Below are positions 7,832 through 46,868 of a DNA stretch of 64,000 nucleotides, piece after piece (positions within the stretch are counted from its first letter, which is position 1; each line of letters opens with the position of its first letter). Source of the DNA: Halolamina litorea (GTDB lineage Archaea; Halobacteriota; Halobacteria; Halobacteriales; Haloferacaceae); NCBI RefSeq assembly GCF_026616205.1, contig NZ_JANHGR010000001.1, positions 1,798,001 to 1,862,000 of the forward strand. Reading direction: 5' to 3'. The notes beneath the pieces were generated by a model, which worked only from the letters and a program-made list of their open reading frames with translations, was not told where the DNA came from and ran no database searches. The position numbers and the translations under genes are program-made.

Positions 7832-9160
7832 ATGCCGCCGGTCCCCGCCGACGCCTTCAGCCGAGAGATCCGGTCGCTCACGAGCAGCGAGCGGGCGGCC
7901 TTCGTCGCCGACCTCTGGGAAGCCCAAGGCTGGGAGACACGCGTCGACGGGAACGTTGTGGTCGCCGACCGCGACGGCGAGACAGAGCGGCTTCGGGTCG
8001 TCGATCCGGGACGCTTCGGGACGCCCGAGCTCGACGGGGTGGACCGACTCGTCGTCGCGCGCGACCGCGACGGGGTTCGGCGGGTCGCCGAGGAGGCCGG
8101 CGTCGAGTACGTCCCACCCGATGCCCTTCGGGACGTTCTGCTGTACGGCGTTTGTCGTTCGACCGCCGAAGAACTGTACGAGCGGCACGTGGGGAAGCCC
8201 TTGGCGCGAGCAGCACCGGCCCCCGACACGGACAGTCCCGAGGCGGGTGGTGGCGTCACGCTCCCCACGGTGCCGGTGGGCCGTCGTGCCGTCGCCGCCG
8301 TGTTGGTGCTCGCGCTCGTCGGGGCGGCCCTCGCCGGGCCCGCGATTCCCGTGGGAACGTCCAACCCCGTCGCGACACCGGGAACGATCAGTACCACGCC
8401 CGAGGACGAGCCTGCCGGGGCTGTCGGCGCCATCGACACCGCGACGCCGACGCCCGCCAGGGAGCCCGAAGTCGTCCCGGGGATGAGTCTGAGCGGGGTC
8501 GAGAGCGCGCCGGTCCTCACCGTCGCTCACCTGCGGAGTATCAGGAACCGCTCCCGGGTCCGGGCCGTGCGACTCCGTGGGCCGGTCGGCGCGCCGTTCA
8601 TGGGCGGCACCAGTAGCCAGAACCTGACCACGTGGACCGAGAACCGGAGCCACTACTTCAACCGGATCAGGGCGGTTCGGGACAGCGGGAACGACAGCAG
8701 ACCCCTCGAAGTCGCCACGTACGCCGACGGCAGCGGCACGGTGTACGAGCGGTTCTCGGGGACGAACGTGACGCGCTACACCCGGCTCTCCCTCGCCGAG
8801 CGGCCGTCGACGTACTACGACGCCGCCGTCGAGGGGTACCTCTACCGGTACTTCGTCACCGTCGACAACACCGTGGTCACCTGCCAGATCGCGTACGACA
8901 CGGACTGTCCGACCTACCGGGTCGAGATCGACGGTGAGGTCCCTTCGACGCTCCCCGAGGGGGTCGAGGACTACGACGCCCTGATGATCGTCTCCGAGGA
9001 CGGCGTGATCACGACGATGCGGGCGAGCTACACCCTCCCGGACACCGACGGCGACGGGGAGCGCGAGCCGGTGAGCTTCGCCCTCGACTACCGCTTCGAA
9101 CCGGTGGAGCCGCCGACGCCGGCGTGGCTGGACGAGGCGAAAAACGAGACGGCGGACTAA
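7832..9160 (+). CDS. Nuclease-fold (Mrr-like) cytoplasmic domain fused to an extracytoplasmic DUF7537-like domain
   Basis: 442 residues. Residues 1 to about 125 resemble the haloarchaeal restriction-endonuclease-like (Mrr) fold (AFVADLWEAQGWETRVDG and DGVDRLVVARDRDGVRRVAEE), but the catalytic D and QxK residues are not visible, so it is probably inactive. One membrane helix follows (RRAVAAVLVLALVGAALAG, about 150-170). A Thr/Pro-rich linker leads into a beta-rich outside domain of about 240 residues that looks like haloarchaeal DUF7537 lipoproteins (ending PAWLDEAKNE). The ATG at 7832 follows TACTA; a TTG at 7805 is less likely. It is possibly a membrane sensor or scaffold. The stop overlaps the convergent esterase gene by four bases. 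Confidence 0.65.
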   Translation: MPPVPADAFSREIRSLTSSERAAFVADLWEAQGWETRVDGNVVVADRDGETERLRVVDPGRFGTPELDGVDRLVVARDRDGVRRVAEEAGVEYVPPDALRDVLLYGVCRSTAEELYERHVGKPLARAAPAPDTDSPEAGGGVTLPTVPVGRRAVAAVLVLALVGAALAGPAIPVGTSNPVATPGTISTTPEDEPAGAVGAIDTATPTPAREPEVVPGMSLSGVESAPVLTVAHLRSIRNRSRVRAVRLRGPVGAPFMGGTSSQNLTTWTENRSHYFNRIRAVRDSGNDSRPLEVATYADGSGTVYERFSGTNVTRYTRLSLAERPSTYYDAAVEGYLYRYFVTVDNTVVTCQIAYDTDCPTYRVEIDGEVPSTLPEGVEDYDALMIVSEDGVITTMRASYTLPDTDGDGEREPVSFALDYRFEPVEPPTPAWLDEAKNETAD

Positions 9161-9801
9161 GCCTGCTGTTCGACGAACGCGCTGACGGCCGCCAACTCCT
9201 CCTGGCCGATGCCGTGGCCACCCTCGAACGTCTCGAAGGTCACGTCGGCACCCGCGGATCGGAGCCCCTCGGCCGCGGCCTCGCTGCGGCTGGCTGGGAT
9301 GATCTGGTCGGCCGCGCCGGCGCCGACGAAGATCGGTTTCCCCTCGATCCCGTCGGGCGCGGCGTCGGCGTGTGACTCGGCGAGGTAGCCGTGGTGGCCC
9401 GCGACCCACGCGAACCTCTCGGGCTGTTCCAGTACCGTCGAGAAGCTCGTGATCGCCCCCTGACTGAAGCCGAGCAGGCCCAGGTCGTCCGTGTCGAGGC
9501 CGTAGGCGTCGACGGCGGCGTCGACGGACTCGGCCACGAGGTCGAGGCTGCGCCGGAACCCCTCGGGGTCGGGCTGGCTCGACTCCAACCCGCCCGCCGA
9601 GAGGTCGAGGTCGTACCACGTGAAGCCGCCGCGGAGGCGGTCCGGTGCGCGGAAGCTGATCACGTGACGGTCGCCCGGCAGGCGCTCGGCGACCGGGAGG
9701 AGATCCTGTTCGTTCGCGCCGCGGCCGTGGAGGACGAAGACGGCAGCGTCGCTGTCGCCGTCAGGTTCCTCGTGGACGTGTTCGAGCGGGATGTCGGTCA
9801 T
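9157..9801 (-). CDS. Phospholipase/carboxylesterase family alpha/beta hydrolase
   Basis: 214 residues from the ATG at 9801. The family signature is complete: oxyanion region VFVLHGRGANEQDLLP, nucleophile elbow GFSQGA (Ser), acid in GAADQIIP (Asp) and GGHGIG (His). It is the usual size for this cytosolic family, which hydrolyses short esters or lysophospholipids. No signal peptide is present. The true substrate is not evident. Confidence 0.87.
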   Translation of the reverse strand: MTDIPLEHVHEEPDGDSDAAVFVLHGRGANEQDLLPVAERLPGDRHVISFRAPDRLRGGFTWYDLDLSAGGLESSQPDPEGFRRSLDLVAESVDAAVDAYGLDTDDLGLLGFSQGAITSFSTVLEQPERFAWVAGHHGYLAESHADAAPDGIEGKPIFVGAGAADQIIPASRSEAAAEGLRSAGADVTFETFEGGHGIGQEELAAVSAFVEQQA

Positions 9802-9947
9802 GGCCGTCGGTTGGCGGGGGAGCCGTTTGAACGTCTCCCTCGCGGCACGCAGCGTCGACGGGTGTCGATGTCGGCGACCCGCGGGGTCGACGAGCCGTGG
9901 TACGTCGACCAACCGGCCCGGGTCCGACAGCGTGACTGCCGGACCAC

Positions 9948-9962
9948 CGGCTTGATAAGCGC
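9948..9962 (+). promoter_or_regulatory. TATA-like promoter element of ileS
   Basis: The stretch around GCTTGATAAGC lies about 27 bases before the ileS ATG at 9981. That is the normal TATA spacing for a leaderless haloarchaeal transcript. The assignment rests on spacing and AT content only. Confidence 0.45.
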
Positions 9963-9980
9963 GCCACGACAGCGTCCTGT

Positions 9981-12900
9981 ATGGACGAGGAGGTCCCGGA
10001 CCAGTACGAACCGCGGGCGGTCGAGGAGACCGTCAGCGACCACTGGGACGAACACGACGCCTACGAACGGACCAAGGAGGCACACGCCGACGACCCGCCA
10101 TTCTTCTTCGTCGACGGCCCACCCTACACCTCCGGGCAGATGCACCTCGGCACCGCGTGGAACAAGACCCTCAAGGACTCGGTCATCCGCCGCAAGCGGA
10201 TGGAGGGCCACCACGTCACCGACCGGCCGGGCTACGACATGCACGGCCTGCCAATCGAGACGAAGGTCGAACAGGAACTCGGCTTCGACTCCAAACGCGA
10301 CATCGAGGAGTACGGGATGGAGCGCTTCATCGAGGAGTGCAAGCGCTTCGCCGTCGAGAACCGCGAGAACATGGACGAGGACTTCCAGTCGATCGGCGTC
10401 TGGATGGACTGGGAGAACCCCTACCAGACGATCTCGCCGGAGTACATGGAGTCGGCGTGGTGGGCGTTCTCGAAGGCCGACGAGAACGGGCTGGTCGAGC
10501 AGGGCAAGCGCTCGATCACCCAGTGCCCGCGCTGTGAGACCGCCATCGCCAAAAACGAGGTCGAGTACCACCAGGTCGAGGACCCCTCGATCTACGTGAA
10601 GTTCCCCCTCGCGGCCGAAGAGGGGAGCCTCGTGGCGTGGACGACGACGCCGTGGACGGTCCCGGCGAACACGTTCATCGCCGTCGATCAGGATGCCACG
10701 TACGCGAAGGTGCACGCCGAGCGCGACGGCGAGGCGGAGGTCCTCTACGTCGCCGCCGAGTGCGTCGACGACGTGATGGAGAAGGGCGGCTACGAGGACT
10801 ACGAGGTCAAGGAAGAGCTGGCCGGCGAGGAACTGCTCGGCTGGCAGTACGACCACCCGCTGGCCGAGGAAGTGCCCGAGCATCCCGCCTTCGACGGCGC
10901 GGGCGAGGTCTATCACGCCGACTACGTCGAGACCGACCGCACCGGGCTGGTCCACTCCGCGCCCGGCCACGGGCAGGAGGACTTCGAGCGCGGCGACGAA
11001 CTCGGGCTGGACATCTTCTGTCCCGTCGGCGGCGACGGCGTCTACGACGAGCGCGCCGGGAAGTACGCCGGCGAGTTCGTCCGCGACGCGAACGACGAGA
11101 TCATCGCCGACCTGCGAGCGAACGGCCACCTGCTCGCCCACGAGTCCTACACCCACGACTACGGGCAGTGCTGGCGGTGTGACACGGACATCATCTTCCT
11201 CGCGACGAACCAGTGGTTCATCACGGTCACCGACGTGAAGGAGCAGCTCCTCGAGAACATGGAGGAGAGCGAGTGGCACCCGCCGGAGGCCCGGGACAAC
11301 CGCTTCCGGAACTTCATCGAGGACTCGCCGGACTGGAACGTCTCCCGGCAGCGCTACTGGGGCATCCCGATCCCGATCTGGACGCCCGAGGGGCTCTCCC
11401 CCGAGGAGACGACAGCCGACGACCTCGTCGTGATCGGCACGCGCGAGGAGCTCGCCGACCGCGCCGATCAGGACGTGGTGGCCGACGAACTCGACCTGCA
11501 CCGGCCGACCGTCGACGACCTCACGATCACCGAGGACGGCACCACCTACACCCGCGTGCCGGACGTGTTCGACGTGTGGTTGGACTCCTCGGTCGCGTCG
11601 TGGGGGACGCTCGACTACCCCGGCGAGACCGAAGCCCACGACGAGTTCTGGCCCGCCGACGTGATCATCGAGGCCCACGACCAGACCCGCGGCTGGTTCT
11701 GGTCGCAGTTGGGGATGGGCACCGCCGCGGTCGACCAGATCCCCTACGAGGAGGTCGTGATGCACGGGTTCGCGCTGGACAGCGACGGGCGGAAGATGTC
11801 CAAGAGCCTCGGTAACATCGTCACGCCCCACGAGGCGATCGAGGAGGTCGGGCGCGACCCTCTCCGGGCGTACCTGCTCAGCCACGACCAGCACGGCACG
11901 GACCTGCGCTTCGAGTGGGACGGCCTGCACGAGATGCAGTCGACGCTCAACATCCTCTGGAACGTGTTCCGGTTCCCGCTGCCGTACATGGAGCTGGACG
12001 GCTACGACCCCGGCGAAGCCGACCTCGACGACGGCGACCTCTCGGTCGTCGACGAGTGGGTGCTCTCCCGGCTCCAGACCGTCGAGCAGGAGACCGAGGA
12101 CGCGTGGGCGGAGTACGCCCCCCACGACGCGCTCAACGCGCTGCTCGACTTCGTCACGGAGGACGTGAGCCGCTTCTACGTGAAGGCGATCCGTGAGCGC
12201 ATGTGGGAGGAGGCCGACTCCGCGAGCAAGCGTGGTGCCTACGCGACGCTCTCGACGGTGATGAACGAGGTCGTGCGGCTGCTGGCGCCGTTCACGCCAT
12301 ACCTCGCCGACCGGATGTACCACACCCTCGACGGCGACGCCGACACGGTCCACATGCTGGAGGCGCCGACCCCCGACGAGGATCTGCACGACCCCGAACT
12401 GGAGCGGAACATGGCCGTGCTCCGCGACGTGGAGGAGGCTGCCGCGAACGCGCGCCAGCAGGGCGGGCGGAAGCTCCGCTGGCCCGTTCAGGAGGTCATC
12501 GTCGAGACCGACGACGAGACGGTCGCCGACGCCATGCGCGACCTCGAGGAGCTGTTCCTCGAACGCGTGAACGCCCAGAAACTCAGCGTCACCGAGCAGT
12601 TCGAGGACCTCGTCGAGATCGCCGACCCGCAGATGAGCGTGATCGGGCCGGCGTTCGGCGGCGACGCACAGGAGGTCATGGGCGCGGTCCGCGGCGAGCC
12701 CCGCGAGGCTGTCGAGGGCGGCGTCGAGATCGACGGCGAGACGGTCGAACTGACAGACGAGATGGTGGAGTACGACGCCAAACCGCCCGAGGGCGTCTCC
12801 GCCGCCGAGTTCGACGGCGGGCGCGTCTACGTCGACACCGAACTCACCGAGGAGATCGAGCGCGAGGGCTACGCACGGGACCTGATCCGCCGGGTGCAGG

Positions 12901-41148: not shown

Positions 41149-41883
41149 TCACCGGCTCCGGAGCCACCAGACGGCGCCGACGCCGAGTAACACCGTCAGC
41201 CCGCCGAGGAAGAAGAGGAGTCCCGGCGGGAGGGAAATCGCCGCCTGGGCTGCCGCCGAACTGGTCGGCTCGGCGGCCTGCGTCGAAGTGGCAACGGCCT
41301 CCGCGGTCGGCGTGGGCGTCGCCTCCGCGATGCTTATGCCGCCACCGCTCTCCGGCGTCGGCGTCGGTGTCGACGACGCCGTCGCCGCGAGGTCGGCGTC
41401 AGCTCCCTGATCGGCCGGCGGGGCGCTGGCGGTCCCGAACGGCAACGACAGGTCGCCGAAGTACGCCTGTACGAGTACGCTCGTCAGCCCCAGCGCCGCG
41501 ATGGCGCCGATGAGTCTGGAGAGGGCGGCTTTCAGGCCGGTCGTGTCGTCCTCGGTGCCGGCGTAGACGATCAGCGGCGCGTCCGCCGGGCCGTACACCT
41601 GCATCTCGCGGCCCTTCTCCGAGTAGACCGTGTCCACCGGCTCGATCAGGCCGGCGTCTTCGAGTTTGCCGATGTGGTACTGGGCGTTCTGCAGCGAGAG
41701 GTCCTGTCGGTCGGCGATGCCCGAGGGGGTGGCGGGGTCGTCGTGGAACGCCCGCAACATCGACCGGGCGGTGTCCGAGGAGAGCGCGGCGAGGGTTTCG
41801 CCCGCCTCGTCGCTGTCGACGCCGAGCACCCGTGGTTCGGGGTCGGGGTCGGCGTCCGGGGTGGAGGGTAGGAGGTCGACCAT
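41149..41883 (-). CDS. Winged-helix ArsR-like regulator with two C-terminal membrane helices
   Basis: 244 residues. Residues of about 30-95 form a winged helix-turn-helix: SDTARSMLRAFHDDPATPSG, LSLQNAQYHIGKLEDAGLIE and a wing ending YGPADAPLIVY. A membrane helix at about 115-140 follows (LIGAIAALGLTSVLVQAYFG), then a Thr/Pro/Ser-rich outside linker and a last helix (LLFFLGGLTVLLGVGAVWWL). A DNA-binding domain tethered to the membrane with an outside linker is typical of haloarchaeal one-component regulators. The signal and targets are unknown. Confidence 0.75.
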   Translation of the reverse strand: MVDLLPSTPDADPDPEPRVLGVDSDEAGETLAALSSDTARSMLRAFHDDPATPSGIADRQDLSLQNAQYHIGKLEDAGLIEPVDTVYSEKGREMQVYGPADAPLIVYAGTEDDTTGLKAALSRLIGAIAALGLTSVLVQAYFGDLSLPFGTASAPPADQGADADLAATASSTPTPTPESGGGISIAEATPTPTAEAVATSTQAAEPTSSAAAQAAISLPPGLLFFLGGLTVLLGVGAVWWLRSR

Positions 41884-43503: not shown

Positions 43504-45171
43504 ATGAGTGAATCGGACGGCAGCGTGCGGGTCGTCGGGACCGCGCACGTCTCCGCCGAGAGCGTCCGGGAGGTCGAGGAGACCATCGAGGAGGAGCAAC
43601 CGGACGTGGTCGCCGTGGAGTTGGACGAGGGCCGCTACAGCCAGATGCGCGGTGAGGAGCCCGAGGACCTCTCAGCGGGCGACCTGCTGGAGGGCAACAC
43701 CGTCTTCCAGTTCCTCGCCTACTGGATGCTCTCCTACGTCCAGGCCCGGATGGGCGACCGCTTCGACATCCAGCCCGGCGCCGAGCTACTGGCGGCCGTC
43801 GAGACTGCCGAGGAACACGGCATCGATATCGAGCTCGTCGACCGGGACATCCAGGAGACGGTCCGGCGCTTCTGGGACCGTATGACGCTGTTCGAGAAGC
43901 TACGGGTGGTCGGCTCGCTGGCGTTCGGGATCACCGATCCCCGGATCGGCGGCGTCACCTTCGGCCTGCTCGTCGGGGTCGTCGTCGGCCCGCTGCTGGG
44001 TATCTTCGGCGGTGCGCTCGGGATCACTCAGCCGCTGCTGGTGAGCCTCACCGGCGGGGCGCTGCTGGCGCTGGTCTCGGGCTACCTCCTCTCGGAGGTC
44101 ACGTTCCGGGCGCTTGAGGACGACGCGCTGGCACTCGGCGTCGCCGGCGGCGGCGGGTTCGCGGTCGGCGCGGTCGGCGGGTTCGGACTCGGGCTGACTG
44201 ACCCGCTCGTGACCCGTTACCTCGGCGACTTCGTGATCACCGCGGTCGGGTCGATGACGCTCGGGCTCGGCGGGGGGCTCGTCGTCGGTGGCGTCGTCGC
44301 CGCCCTGATGAGCGTGTTCCTCGGGAGCGGCGAGCCGGCCGACGAGGAACTGGAGGCGTTCGACCCGCAGGAGCTGACCGACTCCGACGTGGTGACGGCG
44401 ATGATGGAGGAGTTCCGGCAGTTCTCCCCCGGCGGCGCCGAGGCGCTGATCGACGAGCGCGACGCGTTCATCGCCCACAACCTCGTGGCCCTGCGCGAGC
44501 AGGGAAAGGACGTGGTCGCTGTCGTCGGCGCCGGCCACCGGGAGGGGATCGAGGGCTACCTCGAACGCCCCGGGACGCTGCCGCCCAAGGAGACGCTCAC
44601 GGGCGAGGAAGAGAGCCTCCTCCCGTGGGGGAAGATCATCGCGGTCGGTATCACCGGCGCGTTCGTGGCCTTCTTCGTGCTGCTGGCGATGGCGGGCGTC
44701 GAGAACCGCTTCCTGCTCGAACTGTTCGCCGCGTGGTTCGTCGTCAACGGCGTCTTCGCCGCGGGGCTGGCGCGGTTGGCGGGCGCACGCTGGCCGTCGG
44801 CGCTGGTCGGCGGCTCGGTCGCGTGGCTCACATCGGTCAATCCGCTGCTGGCCCCGGGCTGGTTCGCGGGCTACGTTGAACTGCGCTACACGACGGTCAA
44901 CGTCGGCGACATCGAGACGCTGAACCGGCTGCTCGACGATCAGGAGACGCCGATCGGGGAGCTGATCCGGCAGATGTTCGCGGTGCCGCTGTTCAAACTC
45001 ATCATGATCGTCGGCCTGACGAACATCGGGAGCTTCATCGCTTCGTTCCTGTTCGCGCTTTACGTCCTGCCGGCGTTCTTCGGAGACATCGGCGGCGTGG
45101 CGGCGGTCCCCGAACTGCTGATCGACGGGGCCCAGAACAGCGCTCGGACGATCTGGGGGTGGGTCGCATGA
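43504..45171 (+). CDS. TraB/PrgY-family membrane protein with interrupted catalytic-like domain
   Basis: 555 residues. The Tiki/TraB-like domain is in two parts. Part one has VVGTAHVS (GxxH, residues 12-15) and VVAVELDEGRYSQM. Part two has DERDAFIAHNL (R319, H325) and VVGAGHREGIEGYL (second GxxH, H345). Between them is a block of hydrophobic helices at about 135-275. A second set of five membrane helices forms the C-terminus. Tiki-type proteins are metalloproteases, but no family member from archaea has a proven activity as far as I know. The stop overlaps the M50 protease gene by four bases, so the two are translated together. Confidence 0.87.
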   Translation: MSESDGSVRVVGTAHVSAESVREVEETIEEEQPDVVAVELDEGRYSQMRGEEPEDLSAGDLLEGNTVFQFLAYWMLSYVQARMGDRFDIQPGAELLAAVETAEEHGIDIELVDRDIQETVRRFWDRMTLFEKLRVVGSLAFGITDPRIGGVTFGLLVGVVVGPLLGIFGGALGITQPLLVSLTGGALLALVSGYLLSEVTFRALEDDALALGVAGGGGFAVGAVGGFGLGLTDPLVTRYLGDFVITAVGSMTLGLGGGLVVGGVVAALMSVFLGSGEPADEELEAFDPQELTDSDVVTAMMEEFRQFSPGGAEALIDERDAFIAHNLVALREQGKDVVAVVGAGHREGIEGYLERPGTLPPKETLTGEEESLLPWGKIIAVGITGAFVAFFVLLAMAGVENRFLLELFAAWFVVNGVFAAGLARLAGARWPSALVGGSVAWLTSVNPLLAPGWFAGYVELRYTTVNVGDIETLNRLLDDQETPIGELIRQMFAVPLFKLIMIVGLTNIGSFIASFLFALYVLPAFFGDIGGVAAVPELLIDGAQNSARTIWGWVA

Positions 45172-45848
45172 GCGCGCCTCGGGGCGACGTCGACGGACGC
45201 GGCGGCTTCGAGCCGTCGCTGCGCTTCTCTGCCTCGGAGCTACAGGACCTGCTGATTGCGTGGCTCGCGCTCGGCTTCGCGTTCGCGGTCTTCTTCGCCG
45301 GCGGCGGGAACGCCGCCGTCTCGCTGATCACCGGGAACCCCGGCGGCTTCGCCGTCGCGCTCGTCGTCTCGCTGCTGACCGCCGGCGTGGGGTTCCTGCT
45401 CCACGAACTCGGCCACAAGGTCGTGGCGGTCAGGTACGGCAACGTCGCCGCGTTCAAAGCTGACTACAACATGCTGTTCCTCGCGGTGATGAGCGCCTTC
45501 CTCGGCTTCATCTTCGCCGCGCCGGGTGCAGTCCACCACCGCGGCCGGATCACCGAGCGCCAGCACGGCCTGATCGCGCTGGCCGGCCCGGTCGTCAACC
45601 TCGTGCTCGCGGCAATCTTCGTCCCGATCTGGATCGGCGGTCTCGTCGCCGGGATCGACCTGCTGACGCTTCTGGGTGGTCGCGGGCTGGCGGTCAATCT
45701 GTTCCTCGCCGCGTTCAACCTCATCCCCTTCGGCGCCCTCGACGGGAAGACCATCCTCGACTGGAGCAAGCTTGCGTGGGTCGGCGCCTTCCTGCCCAGC
45801 GCCGCGATCACGGTGTTCGTCGTGTTCGTGCTCGGTGTCGGCTTCTGA
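45168..45848 (+). CDS. M50-family membrane metalloprotease (site-2 protease-like)
   Basis: 226 residues, about six membrane helices. LLHELGHKVVAVRYG contains the zinc-binding HELGH (residues 79-83), and NLIPFGALDGKTIL supplies the third zinc ligand (Asp) in a form of the NPDG motif. These proteases cut within the membrane. The ATG at 45168 overlaps the TraB-family stop (ATGA), which is strong evidence for joint expression. It lacks a PDZ domain, so substrate choice may depend on the partner. Confidence 0.88.
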   Translation: MSAPRGDVDGRGGFEPSLRFSASELQDLLIAWLALGFAFAVFFAGGGNAAVSLITGNPGGFAVALVVSLLTAGVGFLLHELGHKVVAVRYGNVAAFKADYNMLFLAVMSAFLGFIFAAPGAVHHRGRITERQHGLIALAGPVVNLVLAAIFVPIWIGGLVAGIDLLTLLGGRGLAVNLFLAAFNLIPFGALDGKTILDWSKLAWVGAFLPSAAITVFVVFVLGVGF

Positions 45849-45887: not shown

Positions 45888-46868
45888 ATGACCGACGAGG
45901 AGGGGCTGACCTACGCCGACGCGGGTGTCGACATCGCCGACAGTGAGGCCGCGACGGCGGCGCTGGTCGGGGCCGCCGGCGCCGCCGGGGAAGGCACCGA
46001 CAGCGACTACGCGGGGCTGCTCGACATCGGCGACCGCTACCTCGCGCTGGCGACCGACGGCGTCGGCACGAAACTGCTCGTGGCCGAGGCCATGCGTGAC
46101 TACTCGACGGTGGGGATCGACTGCATCGCGATGAACGCCAACGACCTCGTGGCGGCGGGCGTGCGCCCGGTGGCGTTCGTCGACTACCTCGCCGTCGACG
46201 AACCCGACGAGACGTTCGCCGAGCAGGTCGGCCAGGGCCTCGCCGCCGGCGCCGAGGCTGCCGACCTCGAACTGGTCGGCGGCGAGACGGCGGTGATGCC
46301 GGAAGTGATCCGCGGGCTCGACCTCGCGGGCACCTGCGCGGGGCTCGCTGCGAAGGACGCCGTCTTCGAGGGGAGCGCCGAACCGGGCGACGCGCTCGTG
46401 GGCTGGGAGTCCTCGGGCATCCACTCGAACGGCCTCACGCTCGCTCGCGAGGCCGTCACCCGCGAGTACCAGTACACCGACCCCTACCCTGGCGAGCGCT
46501 ACGACGCCGTCGGCGACGCTCTGCTGGAGCCGACCCGGCTCTACACCGACCTGCTGGACCCGATGCGCGCACACGGCGTCCGCGCGGCGGCCCACGTCAC
46601 CGGCGGCGGCTGGACGAACCTCGACCGGCTCGGCGAGTTCCACTACGAGATCGAGGACCCGTGGCCGCCGAGAGAGGTCTTTGACTTCGTGCAGGACCTC
46701 GGCGACGTGAGCGACGAGGAGATGCACCGGACGTTCAACATGGGCACCGGCTTCGTCGCCGCCGTCGACCCCGAGGAGGCCGACGCGCTGGCCGGCGAGA
46801 CCGACGGGCGCGTGATCGGGCACGTCGAGGAGGGCGACGGCGTGGCGATCCGCGGGCTGGAGCTATAG
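45888..46868 (+). CDS. purM: Phosphoribosylformylglycinamidine cyclo-ligase (AIR synthetase)
   Basis: 326 residues. The PurM signature is intact: TYADAGVDI, LATDGVGTKLLVAEAM, GIDCIAMNANDLVAAG, VGGETAVMPE, HSNGLTLAREAV, and the C-terminal VTGGGWTNLDRLG and NMGTGFV. It closes the imidazole ring of AIR with ATP in purine synthesis. The ATG at 45888 follows the M50 stop by 39 bases; co-transcription is possible but not needed. Confidence 0.95.
   Translation: MTDEEGLTYADAGVDIADSEAATAALVGAAGAAGEGTDSDYAGLLDIGDRYLALATDGVGTKLLVAEAMRDYSTVGIDCIAMNANDLVAAGVRPVAFVDYLAVDEPDETFAEQVGQGLAAGAEAADLELVGGETAVMPEVIRGLDLAGTCAGLAAKDAVFEGSAEPGDALVGWESSGIHSNGLTLAREAVTREYQYTDPYPGERYDAVGDALLEPTRLYTDLLDPMRAHGVRAAAHVTGGGWTNLDRLGEFHYEIEDPWPPREVFDFVQDLGDVSDEEMHRTFNMGTGFVAAVDPEEADALAGETDGRVIGHVEEGDGVAIRGLEL

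Follow-up and report, generated by a model that had tools for sequence, protein, structure and literature searches.

We know of one pair of a TraB-family protein and an M50 site-2 protease (S2P) that shares a peptide, and it is enterococcal. In Enterococcus faecalis the S2P Eep frees a pheromone from the signal peptide of a lipoprotein, and PrgY/TraB is believed to work outside the cell and to break down the pheromone that the cell itself makes (PMC7117660). Signal peptides are described as S2P substrates in several bacteria (PMC10202637). Among archaea, the MJ0392-type S2P is known from a crystal structure (PDB 3b4r; CBS part PDB 5g5r), and a review describes four S2Ps in Haloferax volcanii, two of them without extra domains, giving their function as unknown (PMC9263693); a term search of the text of this review found no occurrence of "TraB".

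The window (the whole stretch of DNA analysed here, 64,000 nucleotides of the Halolamina litorea genome) carries a gene for a TraB-family membrane protein that overlaps a gene for a small M50 protease. Both protein families were already known; what appears to be undescribed is their ancient pairing in archaea, of which no description was found in open-licence PMC papers.

The overlapping TraB and M50 genes

The coordinates of the pair, of its parts and of two neighbouring genes are given in Table 1. In the window, a MOFRL-family gene lies divergently upstream of the TraB gene, and the gene of the HTH regulator lies beyond it.

Table 1. Features of the TraB/M50 locus, in positions of the window
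Feature	Coordinates	Strand	Details
TraB family membrane protein (TIGR00261 / PF01963), 555 aa	43504..45171	+	ATG 43504, stop 45169-45171
TraB domain, N-terminal half (residues 6-139)	43519..43920	+	GTAH at 43537-43548, residues 12-15
Inserted membrane block in TraB (residues 145-283)	43936..44352	+	four predicted helices
TraB domain, C-terminal half (residues 284-358)	44353..44577	+	ERD 44455-44463; GAGH 44527-44538
C-terminal membrane part of TraB (residues 375-555)	44626..45168	+	common to short archaeal TraB
ATGA overlap, TraB stop / M50 start	45168..45171	+	
Small M50 site-2 protease (S2P), 226 aa	45168..45848	+	ATG 45168, stop 45846-45848
HELGH zinc motif of M50 (residues 79-83)	45402..45416	+	
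Second M50 motif NLIPFGALDG (residues 184-193)	45717..45746	+	
HVO_1552-family HTH regulator, 244 aa, possible associate	41149..41883	-	neighbour conserved in the window's family only
PurM-type (AIRS) gene	45888-46868	+	39 bases downstream of the M50 gene

Two GxxH motifs and conserved Arg and Glu residues are features of the TraB family. The protein of the window matches PF01963 with 105.9 bits (curated cut-off 26.8) and TIGR00261 with 255.8 bits (curated cut-off 178.35), in both cases in two stretches. The initial annotation had described Tiki/TraB-like motifs retained in a domain that is interrupted by membrane helices, five more helices behind it, and a following gene, overlapping by four bases, for an intramembrane zinc protease; the description holds on each of these points. 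G12, T13, H15, ERD (residues 318-320, including R319) and GAGH (residues 342-345) do not vary across the 51 aligned halobacterial rows, a count that leaves out A14 of GTAH, and the His and Arg residues named in that annotation are thus kept in the orthologues. The GxxH, ERD and DR residues are likewise invariant in these 51 rows, as are the two GxxH motifs and the conserved Arg/Glu in a separate 42-row alignment. Kyte-Doolittle analysis finds four segments in the insert (residues 150-273) and four in the C-terminal part, where the AlphaFold model has about five to six membrane-length helices or half-helices, which makes "five" a fair count. The overlap is confirmed as ATGA, and the product of the second gene reaches 31.9 bits against PF02163 (cut-off 27.2) and possesses both M50 motifs.

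The AlphaFold model of TraB is good for the C-terminal membrane part and for most of both domain halves, whereas the insert is modelled poorly, residues 163-286 scoring under 50. The best structure alignments span residues 2 to 358 and thereby cross the insert, so the two halves make a single fold in the predicted model despite the 139-residue block with its four predicted membrane segments that lies between them. By sequence, the search for a PDB relative of TraB gave none, its sole row being insignificant.

The insert is the least conserved part of the protein, with a mean pairwise identity of 39% among the 39 long-insert rows, as compared with 76% and 75% for the two TraB halves in the same rows and 69% for the C-terminal membrane part (39 halobacterial rows). 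Of the 51 halobacterial rows, 8 have an insert of 6-9 residues, 4 have one of 75-84 and 39 have one of 135-162. Two halobacterial loci (L102 and L111) have no insert and still have the M50 gene adjoining, so that the insert is unnecessary for the pairing; it is probably a variable halobacterial elaboration and not the core of the mechanism. The three size classes look as if the insert had grown stepwise. A parity test, in which all inserts would have an even number of helices, was abandoned, the Kyte-Doolittle counts being noisy (2 to 6 segments in insert-bearing rows). In the non-halobacterial family f16 (for example genomes G296 and G372) the TraB matches are also split near the same profile position, which suggests separate insertions there, and several genomes (for example G217 and G285) encode a second, shorter TraB-like protein of about 230-300 aa beside the full-length one.

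The M50 protein can be assigned to the site-2 proteases by its motifs and by a predicted membrane core similar to that of 3b4r. Across 19 rows of small S2Ps, HExxH never varies, nor do the N, P, D and G of the second motif. Foldseek places PDB 3b4r at the top for the model (probability 1.00, E 1.1e-2, TM-score 0.40), as the only high-probability fold match among the matches listed, and 3b4r is the top match by profile too. Compared with the MJ0392-type protease, whose M50 fold and motifs it has, the small S2P belongs to a shorter subfamily of its own that lacks CBS domains: its 226 residues gave no CBS or PDZ match, and they do not include the C-terminal CBS pair of the MJ0392 type. Two S2P-CBS proteases of the MJ0392 type are encoded elsewhere in the window's genome, away from TraB (243072-243497 and 508173-508601), and PF02163 has matches in all four archaeal control genomes. 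In Haloferax volcanii the counterpart of the window's M50 gene is probably HVO_1555, judging by the HVO_1552-family gene near the pair in the window and by the S2Ps named in PMC9263693.

The window's TraB protein has no hydrophobic segment before residue 150 (Kyte-Doolittle). In 41 short-form TraB rows the linker ahead of helix 1 has 3.22 K+R on average, the loop after that helix 0.15 and the next loop 0.68; the loop that precedes the last two helices has 5.44, and the one that separates them 0.41. According to the positive-inside rule, loops rich in K+R mark the cytoplasmic side, and from this charge distribution the TraB domain is predicted to face the cytoplasm. The active site of MjS2P is reportedly also nearer to the cytoplasmic side.

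Linkage of the two genes within and beyond Halobacteria

TraB and M50 matches both occur in 292 of the 292 genomes of the class. Gene order was compared in 80 halobacterial loci from 69 distinct genomes, made up of the 60 best hits (L003-L062; 49 distinct genomes, all of family f1) and of 20 regions chosen from the M50 listing (L093-L112; families f2, f3, f4 and f6-f9). A small S2P gene is located directly downstream of TraB in all 80, and in 59 of them the two genes share an in-frame ATGA or GTGA overlap. Of six further halobacterial genomes, three of f10 and one of f4 have the genes linked, and two of f11 show no linkage in flanks of 5 kb on the upstream and 2.3-4.7 kb on the downstream side; coordinates add ten linked genomes and one, G021, with the genes apart. 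In total, TraB and M50 genes are adjacent in 83 of the 86 distinct halobacterial genomes compared, the exceptions being G021, G217 and G285. The genes, which the initial annotation supposed to be translated together, are hence not mostly unlinked in relatives.

In a sample of 148 genomes of the phylum, which includes 24 halobacterial ones, TIGR00261 has matches in 147, and outside Halobacteria most of the matches are in one unbroken piece. Many Archaeoglobi and Methanosarcinia encode a different S2P, with CBS domains, directly upstream of TraB (for example L063, L088, L136 and L149), whose profile matches MJ0392 (PDB 3b4r) at 8.6e-67 and the CBS entry 5g5r, "SITE-2 PROTEASE", at 8.7e-44; the MJ0392-type S2P itself thus adjoins TraB in other Halobacteriota.

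Neighbours were counted with cleaned M50 models, up to a distance of 600 bases from the TraB match. The 30 best TIGR00261 loci have S2P-CBS upstream in 22 cases and no M50 in 8. A set of 59 regions, which includes one halobacterial region (G021) and shares 14 genomes with the 30 best loci, has S2P-CBS upstream in 15, S2P-CBS upstream together with a small S2P downstream in 7, and neither in 37. Among 80 named loci, the best 80 of 543 (by title Archaeoglobi, Methanosarcinia, Methanomicrobia and others), 52 have S2P-CBS upstream, 4 have both, 1 has a small S2P downstream and 23 have none; a looser count of the same loci gives 54, 4, 1 and 21, respectively. The 30 best loci and the 59 regions, merged by hand and without G021, give a neighbouring S2P in 38 of 74 distinct non-halobacterial Halobacteriota genomes and no M50 within 600 bases in the other 36, a few contigs ending nearby.

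In a second archaeal phylum, which was reached from a record titled "Thermoplasmata archaeon", a small S2P is located directly downstream of TraB in 20 of 30 loci, and by coordinates it adjoins TraB in 23 of the 50 genomes with TraB above the cut-off. This phylum has the small S2P in 105 of 116 genomes, 57 of which have no TraB above the cut-off. Within Halobacteriota, the small S2P reaches E 1e-20 in 84 of the 148 sampled genomes, and in 38 of the 70 of these that were listed with coordinates both genes are present and lie apart; many methanogens are among such genomes.

Since the S2P is found upstream in some lineages and downstream in others, TraB meets S2P partners on either side. The pairing is not due to chance, yet it is not universal, and a functional link between TraB and S2P is well supported. 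The pair is much older than Halobacteria, and its association is ancient; an ancestral operon of S2P-CBS, TraB and small S2P, trimmed differently in each lineage, would be the simplest history. Two other lines of evidence were set aside: co-occurrence, as proof of dependence, is weak in the second phylum (48/50 versus 57/66, Fisher p 0.11), and domain fusion, as proof of contact, was not encountered, no open frame in the loci scanned having both TraB and M50 hits.

The downstream flank contains a PurM-type gene in 23 of 40 halobacterial regions, and L149 has an AIRS-family gene (9158-10168) two genes beyond its small S2P.

Candidate roles of the pair

The two proteins probably work jointly, on peptides of the membrane or on regulators. 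We tentatively propose that they form one ancient archaeal module, which deals with small hydrophobic peptides at the membrane. In it the small S2P would cut transmembrane segments, most probably signal peptides that remain after export or comparable remnants, and TraB, anchored by its helices and with its catalytic-looking domain on the cytoplasmic face, would degrade or hold the fragments released. This division, in which the S2P cuts and TraB clears, is suggested by the same two kinds of protein being connected through gene order in archaea and through a common peptide in bacteria; it takes both proteins to be active, their substrate to be shared, and this substrate to consist of signal or remnant peptides. 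A housekeeping role fits the presence of both proteins in every genome of the class and the metabolic and translation genes that are among the neighbours of the pair (aspartokinase, PurM, Thg1, ribosomal protein S2). We know of no peptide pheromone in archaea. Several observations count against peptide clearing, namely the separation of the genes in many genomes, their weak co-occurrence and an HTH neighbour that points to regulation, as well as the presence in Haloferax of a presenilin-type signal peptide peptidase homologue, HVO_1107 (PMC9263693). Also on this side is the report that natural transformation is normal in Methanococcus maripaludis after deletion of its TraB-like gene (PMC10133366).

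The HTH neighbour leads to a different reading and a strong rival, regulated intramembrane proteolysis. Here the S2P, assisted by TraB or with TraB as the other protease, would free a membrane-anchored transcription factor, in the window's family probably the HVO_1552-type HTH protein. S2Ps often act in such cascades (PMC10202637), and this protein has the architecture that an S2P substrate would have: an N-terminal winged helix, HTH_20 and HVO_1552_C domains, and a Thr/Pro/Ala-rich loop flanked by two predicted membrane helices (about 120-138 and 221-239). Of 14 regions of the window's family, 13 (L309-L320 and L322) have its gene upstream of TraB in divergent orientation, at 160-258 bases in four regions and at about 1.4-2.2 kb, behind a MOFRL gene, in nine. 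The pair of TraB and S2P extends far beyond this linkage: tblastn found the HTH gene in none of 26 regions from other halobacterial families, where the HTH profile has weak hits in three (L112 at 1.8e-5, L094 and L328); the 20 regions fetched for the check were chosen and not random. A homologue occurs somewhere in 275 of the 292 class genomes. The HTH protein may be an S2P substrate or simply the regulator of the operon, which a divergent gene may well be, and a TraB domain predicted to be cytoplasmic would be on the wrong side for a first cut outside the cell. Taken together, we regard release of a transcription factor as somewhat improbable. The same findings bear on the two-step cleavage of surface or signalling proteins that the initial annotation had suggested: for signalling proteins the idea gains from the HTH linkage in the window's family, that linkage being confined to it, and for surface proteins it is weakened by the charge counts.

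TraB may also govern the S2P, as in the TraB-controlled site-2 protease that the initial annotation gave as its alternative: instead of acting after the S2P as a peptidase, it would regulate the S2P or serve as its partner in assembly, with its helices gating substrate access or S2P stability. Its occurrence beside two S2P families, on either side, fits a general partner of S2Ps. The conservation of its C-terminal membrane part also speaks for such a role, and proteins that block SpoIVFB (PMC9042235) provide a precedent. The invariant GxxH, ERD and DR residues suggest catalysis or metal binding instead, and the small S2P does without an above-cut-off TraB in 57 genomes of the second phylum; we think such a role unlikely. 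That the genes share transcription only, as an ancestral operon inherited side by side without a common function, is highly doubtful: in its favour, the genes lie apart in more than half of the 70 Halobacteriota genomes compared by coordinates, and the synteny of the PurM-type gene is also old and without obvious functional reason, but adjacency is kept in two phyla, also where the S2P sits upstream of TraB instead of downstream.

Whichever role applies, a partner conserved with the S2P in two phyla offers a concrete way into archaeal S2P function, and the MJ0392 type of protease also gains TraB as a candidate partner.

Comparison with fold relatives and with enterococcal TraB

The TraB part of the model (residues 2-359) aligns structurally with a Tetrahymena complex IV subunit (Z 13.5), ChaN (Z 8.5), EreC (Z 7.3) and RRSP (Z 5.2), where Z values under about 8 may mean a common arrangement only. 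The fold group was read from the VIA-align list and may include families missing from it; Tiki and TRABD presumably belong to the same group as ChaN, EreC and RRSP. These three have a fold in common with the TraB part, a likeness that shows no function, and we know of no S2P gene beside members of their group. The best structural match, in the mitochondrial complex IV of Tetrahymena (PDB 8b6h chain DQ / 7w5z chain E), is apparently a TraB-like protein in a respiratory complex.

The closest functional parallel to the archaeal pair, which the initial annotation did not mention, is Eep with PrgY/TraB. The Archaeoglobi TraB protein of L063 matches 439 plasmid records, 431 of them from Enterococcus; the 11 Enterococcus rows among the matches listed align over 88-94% of the protein at 33-35% identity. 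The TraB of the window matches L063 in two stretches, with 45% and 34% identity, which between them take in both halves as well as the membrane part. Judged by these alignments, archaeal TraB is, via L063, a full-length relative of enterococcal PrgY/TraB, its C-terminal membrane part included; the window's protein differs by its extra membrane insert. In both groups TraB is tied to an M50 S2P, by gene linkage in archaea and by a shared peptide in enterococci (PMC7117660). The archaeal genes lie side by side, whereas on one annotated Enterococcus plasmid TraB lies beside the gene of a peptide ABC transporter substrate-binding protein and not beside an S2P gene. Neither a peptide-receptor gene nor a pheromone-plasmid setting was found at the locus of the window, which is on a 2.1 Mb contig with the M50, PurM-type and MOFRL-family genes as neighbours. 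The sides of the membrane also differ, PrgY being thought extracellular and the archaeal TraB domain predicted to be cytoplasmic, which counts against the peptide-clearing proposal.

In its widest form, which we hold to be rather doubtful, that proposal would make TraB a standing partner of archaeal S2Ps, the MJ0392 type included, and S2P with TraB an ancient peptide-making and peptide-clearing machine of archaea and Gram-positive bacteria, of which the enterococcal pheromone circuit would be a plasmid-borne specialisation. Such a machine could even make archaeal peptide signals or, in some Halobacteria, feed a membrane-anchored HTH regulator. Through the relationship of the proteins, archaeal TraB is linked to the enterococcal TraB/S2P pair and its shared peptide.
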